From the NCBI GenBank assembly GCA_937922045.1, contig CAKZXA010000010.1:113977-177976 (forward strand): a stretch of DNA of 64,000 nt. Direction: 5' to 3'. Positions 55,335-64,000 of this stretch are shown here, piece by piece. Position 1 is the stretch's first letter, and each line of letters begins with the position of its first letter. The translations under genes were made by a program, and so were the position numbers. The notes under the pieces are model-generated. The model did not search any database and was not told the DNA's origin. It saw only the letters and a program-made list of their open reading frames with translations. Origin of the DNA: an uncultured Acidimicrobiales bacterium. Lineage in GTDB: Bacteria; Actinomycetota; Acidimicrobiia; Acidimicrobiales; SZUA-35.

Positions 55335-57104
55335 ATGCCCTCAGATCGACCTTCCCCCAATGCCAACTCCTCTAGCAGCACGTCGCCAGTCATCTTGTCC
55401 CGGGCCGATGCTCTGGCCCAGCTAACCGCTCCCGGCCAGTCGCATGAGATCATCGACGGCTCGGTCTTCGACCGTCCGGTGCGAGTTTTCGCCAACGCCC
55501 CCTTTTCGCTTCGTGAGCTGTTCGATACGGCTCGCAGCGATGCCACCTTCCTCGTCTACCGTGATGCCAACCATCGTGACGATGCCGATCGGCTGACCTT
55601 TGAGCAGACCTGGCAGCAGGCTTCGGCTTTGGGCTGGGCCCTGGTCAACGACTACGGCATCGAGCCAGGGGATCGGGTTGCTATCTCCTTGCGTAACTAT
55701 CCGGAGTGGGTCGTGGCCTACATGGCGACGACGTCGATTGGGGCCATCGCCGTGGCCATGAATTCGTGGTGGACACCGGACGAGATGGCCTACGGCCTCG
55801 GCGATTCGGGCGCCAAGATCTTGATCGCCGACACCGAACGGGTCGAACGGTTCCAGGCGATCACGGACCGCCCGCCGATCCCGGTTCTCGCCGTGCGTGC
55901 ACCGAACGCTCAGCACGACGTGATCGACCTGGCCGATGTTTTGGCCTCGGCTTCGGGCCAGCCGATGCCGTCGCAAGCCCCCGGACCTGAAGACATCGCC
56001 TCGATCATGTACACCTCGGGCTCGACGGGCCATCCCAAGGGGGTGGCGTCGTGTCACCGCAACATCATCGCCGCCTTGATGTCGTGGGAGTTGGACGCAG
56101 CAGCCGGTGCCCTGATCAACGCTTCTGCTGGGGGCCCTCCACCGCCGACGTTGCAAGGCCAGGATGGGACCTTGTTGGCAGTTCCTCTCTTTCACGCCAC
56201 GGGCTCGCACGCCGCCTATCTGTCGTCTTACCGGCATCAACGAAAGATCGTGTTGATGTACAAGTGGGATGTAGCCAGGGCGGCCGAGCTGGTCGAGCAG
56301 GAGCAGGTGGTGTCGTTCTTCGGCCCATCGGCCATGACCGGCGACCTCGTGGCCGAGGCCGCCCGCACCAACCGTGATCTATCGAGCCTTTTGGTCGTCG
56401 GTGGAGGAGGGGCGGCTCGCGCCCCCGAGCAGGTGGCCCGCATCGGTTCGACCTTCGAGCGAGCCCTGCCGAACACCGGCTGGGGTATGACCGAGACCAA
56501 CGCCATCGGGGCCGGTATCGGTGGCAACGACTATCTGGCCCACCCGGCCAGCTCCGGTCGCAGCTCGGCCGTACTCGATCTGAGGATTGTCGATGAGGCA
56601 GGGGCCACGCTTCCCGCCGGCGAACGCGGCGAGCTTCAGGTTCGCGGCGCCAGCATCTTCAAGGGCTACTGGAACCGTCCCGATGCTGACGCCGAGACGT
56701 TCGTCGCCGCCGGCGATGGCGGCGCTCCGTGGATGCGCACCGGCGACGTCGCCTATCTGGACGACGATGGGTATGTCTACATTGTCGATCGGATCAAGGA
56801 TCTTGTGATTCGCGGCGGCGAGAACATCGGGTGCGGCGAGGTCGAAGCGGTGCTGGTAGAGCACCCGGCTGTGCTCGAAGCGTGCGTGTACGCCGTTCCC
56901 GATGAACGGCTCGGCGAGGAGGTGGGCGCCACCCTCTTTGTTGATGGGTCCAATTTCGACGAGGCCTCGTTGCGGGAGTTTCTGTCCACCCGGCTCGCCT
57001 CGTTCCAGATACCTCGCTATCTAACGGCTCTAGACGAACCCTTGCCTCGCACCGCTTCGGGCAAGATCTTGAAACGTCAGTTACGGGCTGAAGCCGCACT
57101 GTAG
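55335..57104 (+). CDS. AMP-dependent acyl-CoA synthetase/ligase
   Basis: 589 aa ANL-superfamily enzyme that activates a carboxylic acid as acyl-AMP and then acyl-CoA. P-loop-like IMYTSGSTGHPKGVA, GWGMTETNAIGAG, hinge region MRTGDVAYLDDDGYVYIVDR and the C-terminal Lys in PRTASGKILKRQLR are all intact. The N-terminal 25 residues are Ser/Pro-rich. Substrate chain length cannot be told from motifs. ATG start with no clear ribosome binding site. Confidence 0.92.
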   Translation: MPSDRPSPNANSSSSTSPVILSRADALAQLTAPGQSHEIIDGSVFDRPVRVFANAPFSLRELFDTARSDATFLVYRDANHRDDADRLTFEQTWQQASALGWALVNDYGIEPGDRVAISLRNYPEWVVAYMATTSIGAIAVAMNSWWTPDEMAYGLGDSGAKILIADTERVERFQAITDRPPIPVLAVRAPNAQHDVIDLADVLASASGQPMPSQAPGPEDIASIMYTSGSTGHPKGVASCHRNIIAALMSWELDAAAGALINASAGGPPPPTLQGQDGTLLAVPLFHATGSHAAYLSSYRHQRKIVLMYKWDVARAAELVEQEQVVSFFGPSAMTGDLVAEAARTNRDLSSLLVVGGGGAARAPEQVARIGSTFERALPNTGWGMTETNAIGAGIGGNDYLAHPASSGRSSAVLDLRIVDEAGATLPAGERGELQVRGASIFKGYWNRPDADAETFVAAGDGGAPWMRTGDVAYLDDDGYVYIVDRIKDLVIRGGENIGCGEVEAVLVEHPAVLEACVYAVPDERLGEEVGATLFVDGSNFDEASLREFLSTRLASFQIPRYLTALDEPLPRTASGKILKRQLRAEAAL

Positions 57105-57115
57105 ATGTAGCTGTC

Positions 57116-57137
57116 GCTGATCGCCGTTCCGATCAGC
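57116..57137 (+). terminator. Hairpin after the acyl-CoA synthetase gene
   Basis: GCTGATCG-CCGTTC-CGATCAGC, 8-bp perfect stem starting 12 nt after the stop codon. No U-tract. The rest of the 125-nt gap holds the ribosome binding site of the next gene (GAGGAG at 57219-57224) and no clear promoter. Confidence 0.5.
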
Positions 57138-57229
57138 CCCAAGAGGCTAGCCAGAAGTCGGCTACGAACTCCTCATTTCGACCGCTCCCCGACCGATATG
57201 GCAGGCGTAGGTCTATTTGAGGAGAGCTT

Positions 57230-60200
57230 GTGTCTGCAGCAGTAACGGGCCGAAAGGTAATCAACCTGGCTATGGCCTGGATACTGTTTGCGGCGGTGGC
57301 GGCGGTAGGTCTGGTCACACAAGCCGTACCGCCGGCTTCGGCGGCATCTTCTGACGTCGAGCTAGCTGTGTTGATAGACCGGCTCTACGATGGTGTCGAT
57401 CCCAGTCCTGCGATCGACGACGACCCGGCGCTCCCTCCCACAGCGGGCTATACGCTCGCTGCCAACCAAGACCACAATGGCGAGGTGGCAACCCTCGACA
57501 TCGTTGGGTATCGCGTCACGGCTTCGGTCAACCTTTCTCCTGGCAGCGTCTCGGCTAGTGAGCAGGTGGAGAACCTGCGGTTGGAGATGACCTTGAGCGG
57601 TGGTGCCACCTGGAGTCTCCCCGGTGGCGGTCCCGTCGCCGGTTGTGACTCCGCTGGGAGCTATGCCACCTATGGGCAGGGCACCGACACGCTTATCTGT
57701 GAGGTTGCTGGCCCCCTCCAGACCGGTGACGTGTTCTTCGTTGATGGCGTTGCCATCGTTCCCGGCACGATGAGCGACGGCGATCTGATCGGGATCAGCT
57801 CTAGCTTCACGGCCGACCACATCCCTTCCGGCGACACGGTGGCGGCGGCACCAGCCTCCGGACCTGACACCGTTGTGCGCACCTCGACGAACGACATCGA
57901 TCTTCGAAAGGGCATGGTACGTGATGACGCCTGGGAGTGGGTCACCGACGAGACAGGGGCGGCCACGCATGTGCGGCTCTCTTGGCCGATCTACATCGAG
58001 CCAGCCGACATGGAGACCTCAGGGGGCAAGGGCTTCACCGAGTTCGTGCAAGACACCTTGACGTTCACTGACGATATCGATCTGCTCACTCCTACCTCCC
58101 TGCGGAACGTTGCTACCCTTTCCGGTTGCGGCACGAGAACTGATCCGGTCACATCCGAGTTTACGAACCTGGCCTATTATCACATCCTCTACGACTGGAC
58201 CCGATCTTTCGACGGCCCCTACGTGCAGGATTTTTATGGAGCTCCCGCTGGACTGTGGACCTGTACCCAGGCTGGCGGCGTGGGTACCGATATCGTCGTC
58301 TCGATCGCTGGGGCCGACCTTTCAGCCCAAGGGTTCGCCGCTCCCGGCCCTTCTACTTTCGTCTCACGACCGTTCTTCCAATTGAACGCTGAAACCATCG
58401 AGGTGTACGGCGAACCAGCTGGCCAGAATTACATAGCGATCCTTGCCTCGGGCTACATCAATATTGACATCCCCCTGGGTGATGTTCAGGCCGCCGATCT
58501 TGAGTCCGACGGTGTAGCCGACAACAGCACCAGGATCTGCAATACTGTCGCCGCCGATCTGGCTGCGTCATTGTCATCAGCTCCTGTGGCGGGAACCGTC
58601 GACACCTTGGATGACAATGAAGCATGCATGGAGATCGATTGGACCCCCAACGTGAGCGGCGACTGGTCTGCGTTCATTGGCACCTACACCACTGACAGCG
58701 CCAGTGGTGCTCAGGTGACACCTCTTGCCGGAAACCCCACCGTGAGTACCTCACCCCCGAGACCATCGGCCACCGAGGTCACCGATTCGGCGCTTGCCGG
58801 TCAACGCGCCGTGATCAGGTCACGCGTCGGTACGAGCAGTGGAGATCTAACGCCAACTACGGGAATCGGGATCTGCCAGGCCTTCGACACCAACGTCTAC
58901 AGTGTGGTGGCCAACACCACGCCGACAGGTTTCAATGCTGCAAACAGGATCACGGTGCTCCCGTGGATGGCGATTGAGGAGACCACAAATCGTCCGGCCA
59001 CCGATCCCTTCGATTGGGCCACCGACGCCACCATCCAGTTCGCTTCGGTGCCGACGTGGGCCGACTTCGACGCCATGACCAACATGGACTCCGATGGTGA
59101 CGATGTGGTCGATTGTGACGACCCAGACATAACGTTCGTCGACGACCCCACCACGCTTCCAGGCGGGGCGGCGTCGGCCAACCTCATGCGATTCCAAACC
59201 CAGCCTGGCTACATCCTACGGCCAGGTACCGACCTCTATACCATGATCGAAATCGAGATCTCGCCTACAGCCCCGGCTGGGACCATTGGCATGCATGCCA
59301 CCCGGTTCAAACGAGATCAGGTGACCGAAGCGGGCGTTCCTGGCGGTTGGGACTTCCCATGCGAAACCGACGGTGAACCGTGCTCGTATGATCCCTACGA
59401 CATTGCTAGTCTTCCGCTCGATAGCCCTAGCGCCGCTGGAAAGCCGCAGTCAGCGCAGGCCTTCCGCTCGGCATACTCCGATTCGAACGTGGATCGGCTT
59501 GTCATTGTTGATGCGCTGGCCAGAATACGAAAGTCTGACGTTGGCCCATTGGCCAGCGACTACTCAAACTCGACTCTGTACGACTCCGTGGTGACAATGC
59601 CAGCCGGCGACCCGTGGACGACCTATCAATCAGTCGACCTTACGGCTGGCCCGTCGGGTGCCGTGATAGAGAACGTCACCTTTGTCGACTCGCATCCGTC
59701 GAATCTCATCCTTGATTCTTCGTCCGCTTCGCTGACCGCGGTTATCGATGATTGTGAAGGAACGCAGAATCCCGACTGCATCACCGACCCGCTGGCCAGA
59801 ACGAACACCGGTATCACAACCCATGTTTGGAACGTCGGAACGGTTATCGTCCCTGCGAATGCGACGATGACCGTGAGCATGGAAACCATTTGGATTACAC
59901 CGTTGGTGGCCAACGGCACCGTGATCAGAAACTGGGTTGCCGTAACCGGAGATGGCATACCGGAGAATCCGGTCAAGGTAAGAGATAGCCACAGCTCGGC
60001 CGACAGCACCGTTGGCGTCGATCGTGACGACGACGAGGTCAGGTTGACCGTGCCGCCTGTCTTCCAGCTCCGCAAGACTGTGCTCGATCCGCTCGTGCCC
60101 ACCGACACCGACTTCGATCATCAGGTGGCTTACGGCAACCCGACCACCTCATCCATTGCTTCGGCCGACATCATTGACGTGTTGCCGGTCAACGGCGATG

Positions 60201-63200
60201 TGTACAACCCAGCGACCGATTACAACGGTGACTTCTCGCTGGTATCGGTTGGCCTAGCCGATGCACCTGAAGTTACGAATGTCTACGTCACGTCCGCCAG
60301 CCTTGTCGGCTCGACGACGCCAGCTTCAGGAACGCCGATTGGCGACCTCGACCCCCAGCATCCCGATCACAGTGGAGCGAATGCGCCGGGTGTGGCTGGC
60401 GGCAACTGGGAGTGTCTCTTGGCCGACGTCGGCACGGGTAGCTGCCCGGCCTTGACCGCTGTGACCGGTCTGCGATTCATTCTCGGAGCGATTGGATCCA
60501 ACACGTTTGGCTCGATCGGGCTTACCTTCAACGGAACCAGCAACCTCGGGGACGACATCTACACCAACCGCGTCGGCGCTCGCGCCGCCGGGCTGGCCTT
60601 GCCCGTGTTCTCCGATATGGTTTCCACCGAGATCTTCGCCGCCAGCCTTGGTGACCTCCTCTACAACGACGTCGACGCTGACGGCATCTTTACCCCCGGA
60701 ACCGATGAGCCCATCTCTGGCGTCACCATCGAACTCTTCGATGCGATCACCGGCTCTTCGCTTGGCACGACGACAACCGACGCTGACGGCCGATGGGTAT
60801 TCACCGGCCTCGCCGAAGGCTCTTACTATGTCGAAGTACCAGCAACCGAGTTCGCCTCGGGAGGTCCGCTCCATCTTTCAACACTGACACCCGCCGCATC
60901 GTCGGGTGATGGCCTGGCAGCCAATGAGGACGCAGATCACGACAGCGTCGGCTTCGTTGGAGGCGCCCTCCAGTCAGAAACCGTCGTCGTGACGATCACC
61001 GAGGTGAGCCCCGGTGTTTGGGCCACCAACGCGCCCAACGCCGATGACCCGGTCGATGGCACAACGAACCTCGACCCAGCCGCCCAAGATGCGGCCACCT
61101 ACTTCACGCTCGATCTGGCTCTCCAGCAGCCAAGCCAGATCGGCGACTACGTTTGGCTTGACGAGAACGCCGATGGCGTTCAGGACGCTGGTGAGTTCGG
61201 AATCCCCGGCGTCACTGTCAATCTGCTCAACGCCTCTGGTGTTGTGATCGCGACCGCTGTCACCGATGCCAATGGCTTGTACAGCTTCCCGACGGCCAAT
61301 GGGCCCGGCACCTACACCGTTGAGATCGACGGCGCCACGTTGCCCACCGGAGCGGTGCAAACCTACGACCTCGACGGCGGCGGCGATTCGACTGCAACGT
61401 CCGCTGTTCCCACCGACGGGCTCGATATCTTCGACTTTGGCTACGACCTCGACCCATCGAGCATCAGCGGTACCGTCTTCACCGATCTTCTCAATGACGG
61501 GTCGCAGACTGCACTGGACGGCGATGCTCCGCTTGAAGGCATAACGATCACGCTCGAGGGCACCGACATCTTCGGCAACATCGTCTCGGTGACCGCCACT
61601 ACAGACGCCAACGGCGACTACAGCTTCGACAACCTCTGGCCCGGTGACTACACCGTGACCGAGACCCAGCCGTTGAGTTATGGCGACGGCATCGACACAC
61701 CGGGAACCGGTGGCACCACCTCAACCTCGATCGACGACATCATCGACGTGACCCTCAGCTGGGGCGAGTCGTCGGTAGACAATGACTTCGCCGAGATCCC
61801 GTCATCGCTGGCGGGCACCGTTGAAGTTGATGATGGCACACCGATTGAGGGTGTGACCTTGAACCTGACCGGCACCGACTTAGACGGCAACCCGGTCACC
61901 GCAACGACCACCACCGAAGCCGACGGCTCCTATATTTTTGAGTCGCTTCCAGCCGGCACCTACACGGTGTCCGAGGTACAACCCGCGGCCTATGTCGATG
62001 GCACCGATGTCGCCGGCTCCGAGGGTGGTACCGCGGTCAATCCTGGTGATGAGATCAACACCATCGCCCTGCCCGTCGGCACCGACGCCACCGACTATGA
62101 CTTCGTCGAAGTGCTCCCTGCCTCGATCGCTGGCACGGTGACCGATGAGAACGGTGACCCCATTGTCGGGGTGATGCTCACACTCACCGGCACCGACGAT
62201 CTTGGTGATCCGGTGTCGGTAGTGGTTACCACCGATGCCAATGGTGATTATCTGTTTGATGGCTTGCGTCCTGGTACCTACACGGTGACCGAGACTCAGC
62301 CTGTCGGGTTTGGTGAGGGTGGTGAATCGTCGCCTGATCCTGATGCCACGGTCACGTTGAACACGATTGCTGATCTGGTCTTGACCAGTGGTGAGGCCAA
62401 CATCGATAACGACTTTGTTGAAACGTACTCGTCGCTGTCGGGAACGGTCTTCGTCGACGTAGGCCTCGATGGAGGCGCCCACGATGCTGTTGCTGATCTG
62501 CCGATTGCTGGTGTGACGGTGACGCTGTCCGGAACCGACGCCGCTGGCAACACGGTGACGGCAACGGCTGTCACTGATGCTGACGGCAACTACACCTTTA
62601 CCGACCTTCTGGCTGGTGACTATGTGGTCACCGAAACCCAACCCGCTGGTTACGACGACGGCACCGACGTTGCCGGATCTGCCGGTGGAACGGCCGTCAA
62701 TCCCGGTGATGAGATCAATGCCATTGCGCTGCCTGCCGGAACCGATGCTGTCGACTACGACTTCGGCGAGATTCCGGTTGGCTCGATCGCCGGAACCGTC
62801 ACCGATGAGAACGGCGACCCGATTGAAGGCGTGACCATTACGCTGACCGGCGTTGATTCCTTAGGTAACCCTGTTGCTTCGGTAGTGGTGACCACCGATG
62901 CTAACGGCGACTACATCTTTGAGAATCTTCCACCCGGAACCTATACGGTGACCGAGACTCAGCCGTCTGGCTTCGGTGAGGGCGCTGTAGCTGTTGGTAG
63001 CGAAGGCGGCACTGTGGCCCCCGATGCCGTGACCGGGATTGTGCTCGGTGATGGCACGGTTGCTGTCGACTATGACTTCGTCGAGACCTATGCCTCGCTC
63101 GCGGGCACGGTCTACTATGACGCCAACGAGAACGGCGTCCAAGACCTAGGCGAGATCGGCATTCCGATCGTCGATGTGACCCTCACGGGCACCGATGCTG

Positions 63201-64000
63201 CTGGCAATGCGGTGAACATCACGGTCCAAACCGATACCTCTGGCGGCTATATCTTCACTGGCCTGCTGGCTGGTGATTACACGGTGACCGAAGCCCAGCC
63301 TGCGACCTATCTCGATGGCACCGATGTCGCCGGCTCCGAGGGTGGTACGGCGGTAAATCCTGGTGATGAGATCAACACGATCGCCCTGCCCGTCGGTGTC
63401 GACGCTGTCGACTACGACTTTGCTGAGGTTCAGGCTGCGTCGATTGCTGGCACGGTGACCGATGAGAATGGTGACCCGATTGAGGGTGTGACGTTGACGC
63501 TGACGGGTGTCGATGATCTTGGTGACCCGGTGTCGGTAGTGGTTACCACCGATGCCAATGGTGATTATCTGTTTGATGGCTTGCGTCCTGGTACCTACAC
63601 GGTGACCGAGACTCAGCCTGTCGGGTTTGGTGAGGGTGGTGAATCGTCGCCTGATCCTGATGCGACGGTCACGTTGAACACGATTGCTGATCTGGTCTTG
63701 ACCAGTGGTGAGGCCAACATCGATAACGATTTTGTTGAGACCTATTCCAGTCTTGCTGGCACGGTACTCCATGATGCCAATGAAGACGGGGTTGAGGATC
63801 TTAGCGACGCTGGTATTGAGGGTGTGACGGTTGAGTTGAACGGAACCGACGCTGCCGGTAACCCGGTGTCGTTGACCACGACGACTGATGCTGATGGCAA
63901 CTACAGCTTCGATGATCTGTTGGCCGGTGACTATGTGGTCACCGAAATCCAGCCCGCCGACTACCTCGACGGTGTTGACACCGCCGGTTCTGTTGGCGGC
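57230..64000 (+). CDS. Giant secreted surface protein with SdrD_B-like and repeated Cna-B-type domains (3' truncated by window)
   Basis: Open for all 2257 codons to the window end; the stop lies outside. GTG at 57230 has GAGGAG 5 nt upstream. Layout: signal peptide (residues 1-40, K-V-I-N-L-A-M-A-W-I-L-F then A-S-A); a long unique region (about 41-940) including NMDSDGDDVVDCDDPD, a calcium-loop-like run near 625; a DUF11-like domain (FQLRKTVLDPLVPTDTDF, about 945-1130); two SdrD_B-like domains (SLGDLLYNDVDADG at 1139 and QIGDYVWLDENADG at 1303); then eight repeats from 1410 on. Each repeat starts S-x-x-G-T-V and includes DANGDYxF and G-x-Y-T-V-T-E-T-Q-P. No membrane anchor or LPXTG can be seen, as the C terminus is missing. 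Likely an adhesin or S-layer-like cell-surface protein. Confidence 0.9.
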   Translation, partial: MSAAVTGRKVINLAMAWILFAAVAAVGLVTQAVPPASAASSDVELAVLIDRLYDGVDPSPAIDDDPALPPTAGYTLAANQDHNGEVATLDIVGYRVTASVNLSPGSVSASEQVENLRLEMTLSGGATWSLPGGGPVAGCDSAGSYATYGQGTDTLICEVAGPLQTGDVFFVDGVAIVPGTMSDGDLIGISSSFTADHIPSGDTVAAAPASGPDTVVRTSTNDIDLRKGMVRDDAWEWVTDETGAATHVRLSWPIYIEPADMETSGGKGFTEFVQDTLTFTDDIDLLTPTSLRNVATLSGCGTRTDPVTSEFTNLAYYHILYDWTRSFDGPYVQDFYGAPAGLWTCTQAGGVGTDIVVSIAGADLSAQGFAAPGPSTFVSRPFFQLNAETIEVYGEPAGQNYIAILASGYINIDIPLGDVQAADLESDGVADNSTRICNTVAADLAASLSSAPVAGTVDTLDDNEACMEIDWTPNVSGDWSAFIGTYTTDSASGAQVTPLAGNPTVSTSPPRPSATEVTDSALAGQRAVIRSRVGTSSGDLTPTTGIGICQAFDTNVYSVVANTTPTGFNAANRITVLPWMAIEETTNRPATDPFDWATDATIQFASVPTWADFDAMTNMDSDGDDVVDCDDPDITFVDDPTTLPGGAASANLMRFQTQPGYILRPGTDLYTMIEIEISPTAPAGTIGMHATRFKRDQVTEAGVPGGWDFPCETDGEPCSYDPYDIASLPLDSPSAAGKPQSAQAFRSAYSDSNVDRLVIVDALARIRKSDVGPLASDYSNSTLYDSVVTMPAGDPWTTYQSVDLTAGPSGAVIENVTFVDSHPSNLILDSSSASLTAVIDDCEGTQNPDCITDPLARTNTGITTHVWNVGTVIVPANATMTVSMETIWITPLVANGTVIRNWVAVTGDGIPENPVKVRDSHSSADSTVGVDRDDDEVRLTVPPVFQLRKTVLDPLVPTDTDFDHQVAYGNPTTSSIASADIIDVLPVNGDVYNPATDYNGDFSLVSVGLADAPEVTNVYVTSASLVGSTTPASGTPIGDLDPQHPDHSGANAPGVAGGNWECLLADVGTGSCPALTAVTGLRFILGAIGSNTFGSIGLTFNGTSNLGDDIYTNRVGARAAGLALPVFSDMVSTEIFAASLGDLLYNDVDADGIFTPGTDEPISGVTIELFDAITGSSLGTTTTDADGRWVFTGLAEGSYYVEVPATEFASGGPLHLSTLTPAASSGDGLAANEDADHDSVGFVGGALQSETVVVTITEVSPGVWATNAPNADDPVDGTTNLDPAAQDAATYFTLDLALQQPSQIGDYVWLDENADGVQDAGEFGIPGVTVNLLNASGVVIATAVTDANGLYSFPTANGPGTYTVEIDGATLPTGAVQTYDLDGGGDSTATSAVPTDGLDIFDFGYDLDPSSISGTVFTDLLNDGSQTALDGDAPLEGITITLEGTDIFGNIVSVTATTDANGDYSFDNLWPGDYTVTETQPLSYGDGIDTPGTGGTTSTSIDDIIDVTLSWGESSVDNDFAEIPSSLAGTVEVDDGTPIEGVTLNLTGTDLDGNPVTATTTTEADGSYIFESLPAGTYTVSEVQPAAYVDGTDVAGSEGGTAVNPGDEINTIALPVGTDATDYDFVEVLPASIAGTVTDENGDPIVGVMLTLTGTDDLGDPVSVVVTTDANGDYLFDGLRPGTYTVTETQPVGFGEGGESSPDPDATVTLNTIADLVLTSGEANIDNDFVETYSSLSGTVFVDVGLDGGAHDAVADLPIAGVTVTLSGTDAAGNTVTATAVTDADGNYTFTDLLAGDYVVTETQPAGYDDGTDVAGSAGGTAVNPGDEINAIALPAGTDAVDYDFGEIPVGSIAGTVTDENGDPIEGVTITLTGVDSLGNPVASVVVTTDANGDYIFENLPPGTYTVTETQPSGFGEGAVAVGSEGGTVAPDAVTGIVLGDGTVAVDYDFVETYASLAGTVYYDANENGVQDLGEIGIPIVDVTLTGTDAAGNAVNITVQTDTSGGYIFTGLLAGDYTVTEAQPATYLDGTDVAGSEGGTAVNPGDEINTIALPVGVDAVDYDFAEVQAASIAGTVTDENGDPIEGVTLTLTGVDDLGDPVSVVVTTDANGDYLFDGLRPGTYTVTETQPVGFGEGGESSPDPDATVTLNTIADLVLTSGEANIDNDFVETYSSLAGTVLHDANEDGVEDLSDAGIEGVTVELNGTDAAGNPVSLTTTTDADGNYSFDDLLAGDYVVTEIQPADYLDGVDTAGSVGG
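62211..62422 (+). repeat. Near-identical copy 1 of a 212-nt segment repeated 1317 nt downstream
   Basis: This segment matches 63528-63739 with only two base differences (62347 and 62413). The offset, 1317 nt (439 codons), spans exactly four repeat units: units 3 and 4 recur as units 7 and 8 with the same spacing, and part of unit 2 (61997 onwards) recurs at 63314 at the same offset. Confidence 0.93.
63528..63739 (+). repeat. Near-identical copy 2 of the 212-nt segment
   Basis: Partner of 62211-62422. Both lie in the short-type repeat carrying P-V-G-F-G-E-G-G-E-S-S-P-D-P-D. The low divergence points to recent duplication or gene conversion within the gene. Confidence 0.93.

Follow-up and report, generated by a model that had tools for sequence, protein, structure and literature searches.

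The staphylococcal surface proteins SdrD and SdrC (MSCRAMM) combine an N-terminal head with a stalk of SdrD_B-type modules and a C-terminal sortase signal, and the ligand-binding head of the MSCRAMM Sdr family has an N2–N3 fold. Further points of comparison among actinobacteria are the chaplins, which are short hydrophobic proteins, and the surface proteins of Ilumatobacter coccineum, which we take to be a related actinobacterium. Thirteen ORFs with sorting signals (LPXTG motif) in I. coccineum have been likened to MSCRAMM adhesins, and a role in adhesion has been suggested for them (PMC3910706). In soil and freshwater actinobacteria, the display of proteins carrying LAXTG signals is the task of class E sortases (PMC5148588). 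An N-terminal putative head, a repeat stalk and a sortase motif, LAxTG included, are found in the fibrillar adhesin-like proteins of Firmicutes and Actinobacteria (PMC8286594, PMC9210967), and adhesive domains in these two groups lie N-terminal, distant from the anchor (PMC8286594). The main text of PMC9210967 makes no mention of Acidimicrobiia or Acidimicrobiales.

The window analyzed here is a stretch of 64,000 nucleotides at the end of contig C10 of an Acidimicrobiales draft genome (G000:C10:113977-177976). It encodes the beginning of a giant protein that is probably a cell-wall-anchored, fibrillar adhesin-like protein; we infer secretion, sortase linkage and adhesion. This architecture is of an already known kind. 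The protein resembles the staphylococcal Sdr proteins in its SdrD_B-type stalk, N-terminal head and C-terminal sortase signal, but differs in having no Ser-Asp repeat (judged by eye), an LAxTG instead of an LPxTG motif, and a head for which a profile built from three sequences matches no PDB chain at E 1. The NCBIfam models of full-length Sdr proteins score below their cut-offs (NF012181 for SdrD, 242.9 versus 2500 bits; NF000535 for SdrC, 190.6 versus 1700). Head, stalk and sortase motif are arranged as in the fibrillar adhesin-like proteins, but the domains described in the portions of PMC8286594 and PMC9210967 considered do not include this type of head. The LAXTG signal is shared with class E sortase substrates (PMC5148588), and the present genome has a class E-like sortase; unlike the chaplins, the protein is ~3100 residues long. 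Sorting signals are also shared with the I. coccineum ORFs, the domain make-up of which is not described in the relevant portion of PMC3910706. The original prediction of a candidate new surface system is not supported, as the class E/LAXTG pathway (PMC5148588) and the I. coccineum signals (PMC3910706) are already known and related giant proteins occur in many genomes of the family and class. Within the open-access papers searched, we found no description of the present head family or of its exchanged stalks.

The plus-strand frame of the giant gene is free of stops over its entire length in the window, as had been predicted, and its GTG start is preceded by GAGGAG and followed by a stretch that, by eye, has the character of a signal peptide (Table 1). 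The frame had been described as cut by the end of the window, and it is truncated there; but contig C10, 177976 bases long, ends at exactly the same position, which means that a break in the assembly truncates the gene. The draft genome comprises 4.88 Mb in 128 contigs and is 96.87% complete and 1.47% contaminated. Four annotated upstream neighbors encode the large and small subunits of acetolactate synthase, a PcrA/UvrD helicase and an AMP-binding enzyme, and the six annotated neighboring frames (these four plus some of those on contig C110, discussed below) give no sign of an adhesion operon. A scan of positions 57000–57400 found no promoters or terminators, and Tandem Repeats Finder reported no array in the coding stretch. 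We saw no sign of phage origin: searching viral contigs with the single head protein, a scan that detects close relatives only, gave two pattern matches and no relatives.

Table 1. Features of the giant gene and of its probable continuation (window positions unless another locus is given)
Feature	Position	Strand	Basis or remark
Probable ribosome binding site GAGGAG, 5 nt upstream of the GTG start	57219..57224	+	Sequence reading
First 2257 codons of the giant gene, running off C10	57230..64000	+	Open frame and contig end
Segment resembling a signal peptide, residues 1-38 (RK, then a hydrophobic run, with ASA preceding residue 39)	57230..57343	+	Translation, by eye
Head, residues 39-1138 (~1100), containing every one of the 14 cysteines in the window frame	57344..60643	+	No Pfam match; residues 41-1117 no PDB match
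Last head domain, ~residues 940-1117, DUF11-related via its relatives	60047..60580	+	Cysteine pair in 26/27 aligned members
Stalk of 10 SdrD_B-like modules, the tenth incomplete because the window stops; free of lysine and cysteine	60644..64000	+	Pfam and residue counts
Module 5, residues 1632-1734	62123..62431	+	97% protein / 93% DNA identity to the module at 63440-63748
117-base stretch identical to the start of reversed C110	63884..64000	+	Same reading frame
Probable C-terminal part of the giant protein	L011:11824-14583 (C110)	-	In-frame 117-base overlap; ends LAFTG, hydrophobic segment, RRRKR

The stalk modules score as SdrD_B (PF17210, 427.4 bits versus a cut-off of 29.7, ten stretches), in agreement with the SdrD_B-like modules predicted, and the first of them match a solved staphylococcal SdrD chain in the PDB (10ps_A, 1.4e-21). 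From residue 1632 onward, module lengths alternate between ~103 and ~116 residues. The near identity of module 5 and the later module paired with it in Table 1 points to a recent duplication. Four of the ten window modules have a loop of the DxNxDG type, which looks calcium-binding. The original prediction had also counted at least eight Cna-B-like modules. Domains of the Cna-B/SpaA type carry in each module a lysine that forms a Lys-Asn isopeptide bond. Lysine is entirely missing from residues 1139–2257, and the C110 frame lacks it over its first 834 residues; the stalk should therefore be without such bonds. Cna_B itself (PF05738) has no match anywhere in the genome at E ≤ 0.001, with the control genome of Lactococcus lactis positive. 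On these two grounds, the missing lysine and the absence of Cna_B from the genome, we dropped the Cna-B label; the modules are SdrD_B.

The missing 3' end of the gene probably lies on contig C110. The final 117 bases of C10 are the initial 117 of reversed C110 (L011), and the reading frame is preserved across them. The C110 frame has 919 codons, of which 39 are shared with C10, so it adds 880 residues and ends in ...GPLAFTGASSGRLASGAALMIAAGGALVLGSRRRKRPLSA. If the overlap is a true join, the complete protein would have at least 3137 residues. Seven SdrD_B matches are listed for C110, six of them above the cut-off, the seventh being what remains of the module that the window truncates; this would bring the stalk to about 16 modules. 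The C-terminus of the C110 frame consists of LAFTG, a hydrophobic segment and a basic RRRKRPLSA tail, a sortase signal of the class E type; provided that the 117-base join is true, the giant protein would thus end as a class E substrate does (LAxTG, hydrophobic segment, basic tail). This C-terminus is matched weakly but over its full length by NF058582, the LAVTG model of NCBIfam (16.1 bits, cut-off 27). As the overlap sits in a repeat that recurs inside C110, the join and the number of modules are uncertain, and copies may be missing.

The original prediction had suggested looking downstream for a C-terminal anchor and a linked sortase; the anchor signal is found on C110, and the sortase is on another contig. 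The genome holds three sortases, none of them on C10 or C110. For the one on contig C32, class E is the best model (155.5 bits, just below the cut-off of 160), while the other two score best as class F, likewise below cut-off. The class E model matches all 18 genomes examined at E ≤ 0.001, eight of them above cut-off and one (G008) weakly at 3.2e-5. Because these include genomes without a head match, for example G001, G005 and G011, the class E sortase is no special partner of the head family. Secretion-type start, SdrD_B stalk and LAFTG-type C-terminus on C110 together give good support to the original idea of a secreted, modular, adhesin-like surface protein.

The head comprises about five domains, counted by eye. 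Eleven of its 14 cysteines are invariant across the three full-length heads available. Residues 41–940 and 891–1157 match no Pfam family at E up to 5, in searches whose HMMER filters drop most weak matches, and Pfam sequence search reveals no known adhesive domain in the head. The description of some 900 residues as unique was thus right with respect to Pfam and wrong with respect to relatives, which exist in other genomes. The structure prediction proposed for residues 41–940 yielded AlphaFold models of the head with pLDDT values of 31.6 and 30.6, too low for use. A DUF11-like part had also been predicted, and support for it is indirect only. Pfam gives no score for the window's own last head domain, but DUF11 is matched at E ≤ 0.1 (best 8.9e-6) by 8 of the 27 members aligned for this domain, and DUF11 above cut-off directly precedes the last head domain in two of eight relatives' heads scanned. 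When the first head domain was compared by profile with DUF11, a two-row reference gave a probability of 72.5% but an eight-row reference one of 2.2%, and the DUF11 label was not adopted for it. Among the head domains themselves, profile comparison found no clear similarity (best probability 4.2%).

Full-length relatives of the head occur in two other genomes. One, from the same family (G015, JAHDFH010000022.1), is colinear and 26–29% identical; the other, from another order of the class (G604), is 27% identical, and its frame ends in LANTG followed by a hydrophobic segment and a basic tail. The G604 gene (L056, just upstream of 10867, minus strand) has an in-frame stop between a signal-peptide-like stretch and the head, which could be a sequencing error, a pseudogene or an unusual start. 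With the own genome included in each count, the single head protein matched in 2 of 148 relatives' genomes. A two-row profile matched 13 of 397 genomes of the order and, at the level of the phylum, 3 of 396; a three-row profile matched 17 of 39 genomes of the family and, at the level of the class, 11 of 395. Most of these matches are partial, and the head is patchy even in its own genus (2 of 12 genomes, own included). A profile of the last head domain matched 23 of 396 genomes in the phylum, mostly weakly, with five genomes above 80 bits. A scan of genomic contigs matched 45 stretches and confirmed one relative, on the contig of the G015 protein (G015:C80).

Besides the window's own, 26 fetched giant frames hold the last head domain, and the start of the head was also matched in 21 of these 27 members. 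The 26 are frames fetched from the search matches, not all of those matched: G025, G030, G031, G228, G009:C1 and G009:C2, for example, were not fetched whole, G732 (L057) was left out of the counts, and frames shorter than 1000 residues were dropped. At least one SdrD_B-like module lies downstream of the head in 25 of the 27 members, and 18 have 1 to 16 DUF11-like repeats there. The window protein has ten SdrD_B-like modules and no DUF11 repeat; other members have at most four SdrD_B-like modules in these counts, in which four other frames are also cut at contig ends. Most relatives have DUF11 stalks, with the window protein at the SdrD_B extreme. Both models favor their source proteins, which are the window and C110 modules for SdrD_B and repeats of C8, G806 and G900 for DUF11. 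The C-terminus is closed in 22 relatives (two of them, G016 and G037, with the N-terminal end at a contig end), and 20 of these finish in [LI][ASP]xTG plus a hydrophobic tail, the motif being LAxTG in 16; the two without a sorting signal are G016 and G790. The G016 relative (L098 4473-8852, minus strand) keeps the last head domain and has a different, cysteine- and arginine-containing C-terminus.

The same genome contains other giant or related frames. Contig C92 encodes a second giant SdrD_B protein (L010 1-5139, minus strand, 1713 codons) with its 3' end lost at the contig end, and its first 330 residues match no Pfam family. Contig C8 encodes a 2225-codon giant (L012 3-6677, minus strand) that shares the last head domain, has a DUF11-like stalk and is cut at the contig end. 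An orphan C-terminal fragment of 310 residues, with an SdrD_B module and a LAFTG signal, lies on contig C38 (L014 2840-3769, minus strand); it could be part of the C92 or the C8 gene.

The overlap with C110 might be a mere shared repeat, in which case the gene would have its end at another place, possibly in the C38 fragment, or would lack an anchor. The overlap tract does recur inside C110, where a 150-base query finds it at 99% identity, and C38 offers another orphan end with the same signal. However, C10 and C110 are the sole pair with an exact end-to-end overlap of at least 15 bases among seven contigs compared, four of them as partial sequences, and the frame is kept. Across the whole genome, the last 150 bases of C10 match, beyond C10 itself, two places on C110 at 99–100%, with all others at 81% identity or less; the alternation of module lengths runs on across the overlap, and the C92 and C8 genes, also without 3' ends, could own C38. 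We consider a wrong join improbable. A Cna-B adhesin or a pilus subunit with isopeptide bonds, as in Firmicutes, is far less credible still, although SpaA scores on the modules (PF17802, 224.6 bits, cut-off 23.1) and belongs to the same Pfam clan as Cna_B (PMC8286594). This reading was rejected on the missing lysines of the stalk, on the pilin model NF033902, which scores on the modules but below its cut-off (59.4 versus 95 bits), and on the sortase classes, with E and F instead of C as best models.

Alternatively, the protein could be structural, forming a coat, a spacer or an aggregate scaffold at the cell surface or in the matrix, with the same anchor and a head that has no specific ligand. 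Such a role would suit the expansion of the family in some genomes, with six giant frames in G009 that match the last head domain at least in part, as well as the variable type of stalk among relatives. None of eight relatives' heads scanned contains an adhesive domain above cut-off, with one weak CBM_6 match (E 0.31). Against this, a full-length head with its invariant cysteines is kept across orders of the class, which exceeds what an inert spacer would need, and the head is N-terminal and distant from the anchor, like adhesive domains in Actinobacteria and Firmicutes (PMC8286594). We hold a purely structural role to be rather unlikely, and favor the cell-wall-anchored adhesin-like protein.

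As such an adhesin-like protein, it would be taken through the membrane by its signal peptide, after which a class E sortase would cleave LAFTG and link the protein to the cell wall, with the join and the cleavage both presumed. The ~16 SdrD_B-like modules would form a lysine-free stalk, possibly binding calcium through its DxNxDG-type loops. This stalk would present the cysteine-rich, multi-domain head with its DUF11-related last domain, and the head may mediate attachment to particles, to polysaccharide or to other cells. We tentatively suggest that in this head Acidimicrobiia-type actinobacteria could have a new, undescribed adhesive module, a multi-domain tip stapled by disulfides and kept while SdrD_B and DUF11 stalks of very different length are swapped beneath it, giving wall-anchored feelers of varied reach. 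If the head binds, the family would belong to the machinery with which these bacteria attach, and the head alignments provide a defined target for structural and binding work.

The actinobacterial group concerned is known mostly from draft genomes, and genes of this kind break draft assemblies: the window gene, a paralogue and the second SdrD_B giant are all interrupted where their contigs stop. A 2443-codon frame on contig C100 of the same genome (L013 3880-11208, plus strand) also runs off its contig, and has a weak SpvB match within its first 1200 residues (23.2 bits versus a cut-off of 22).
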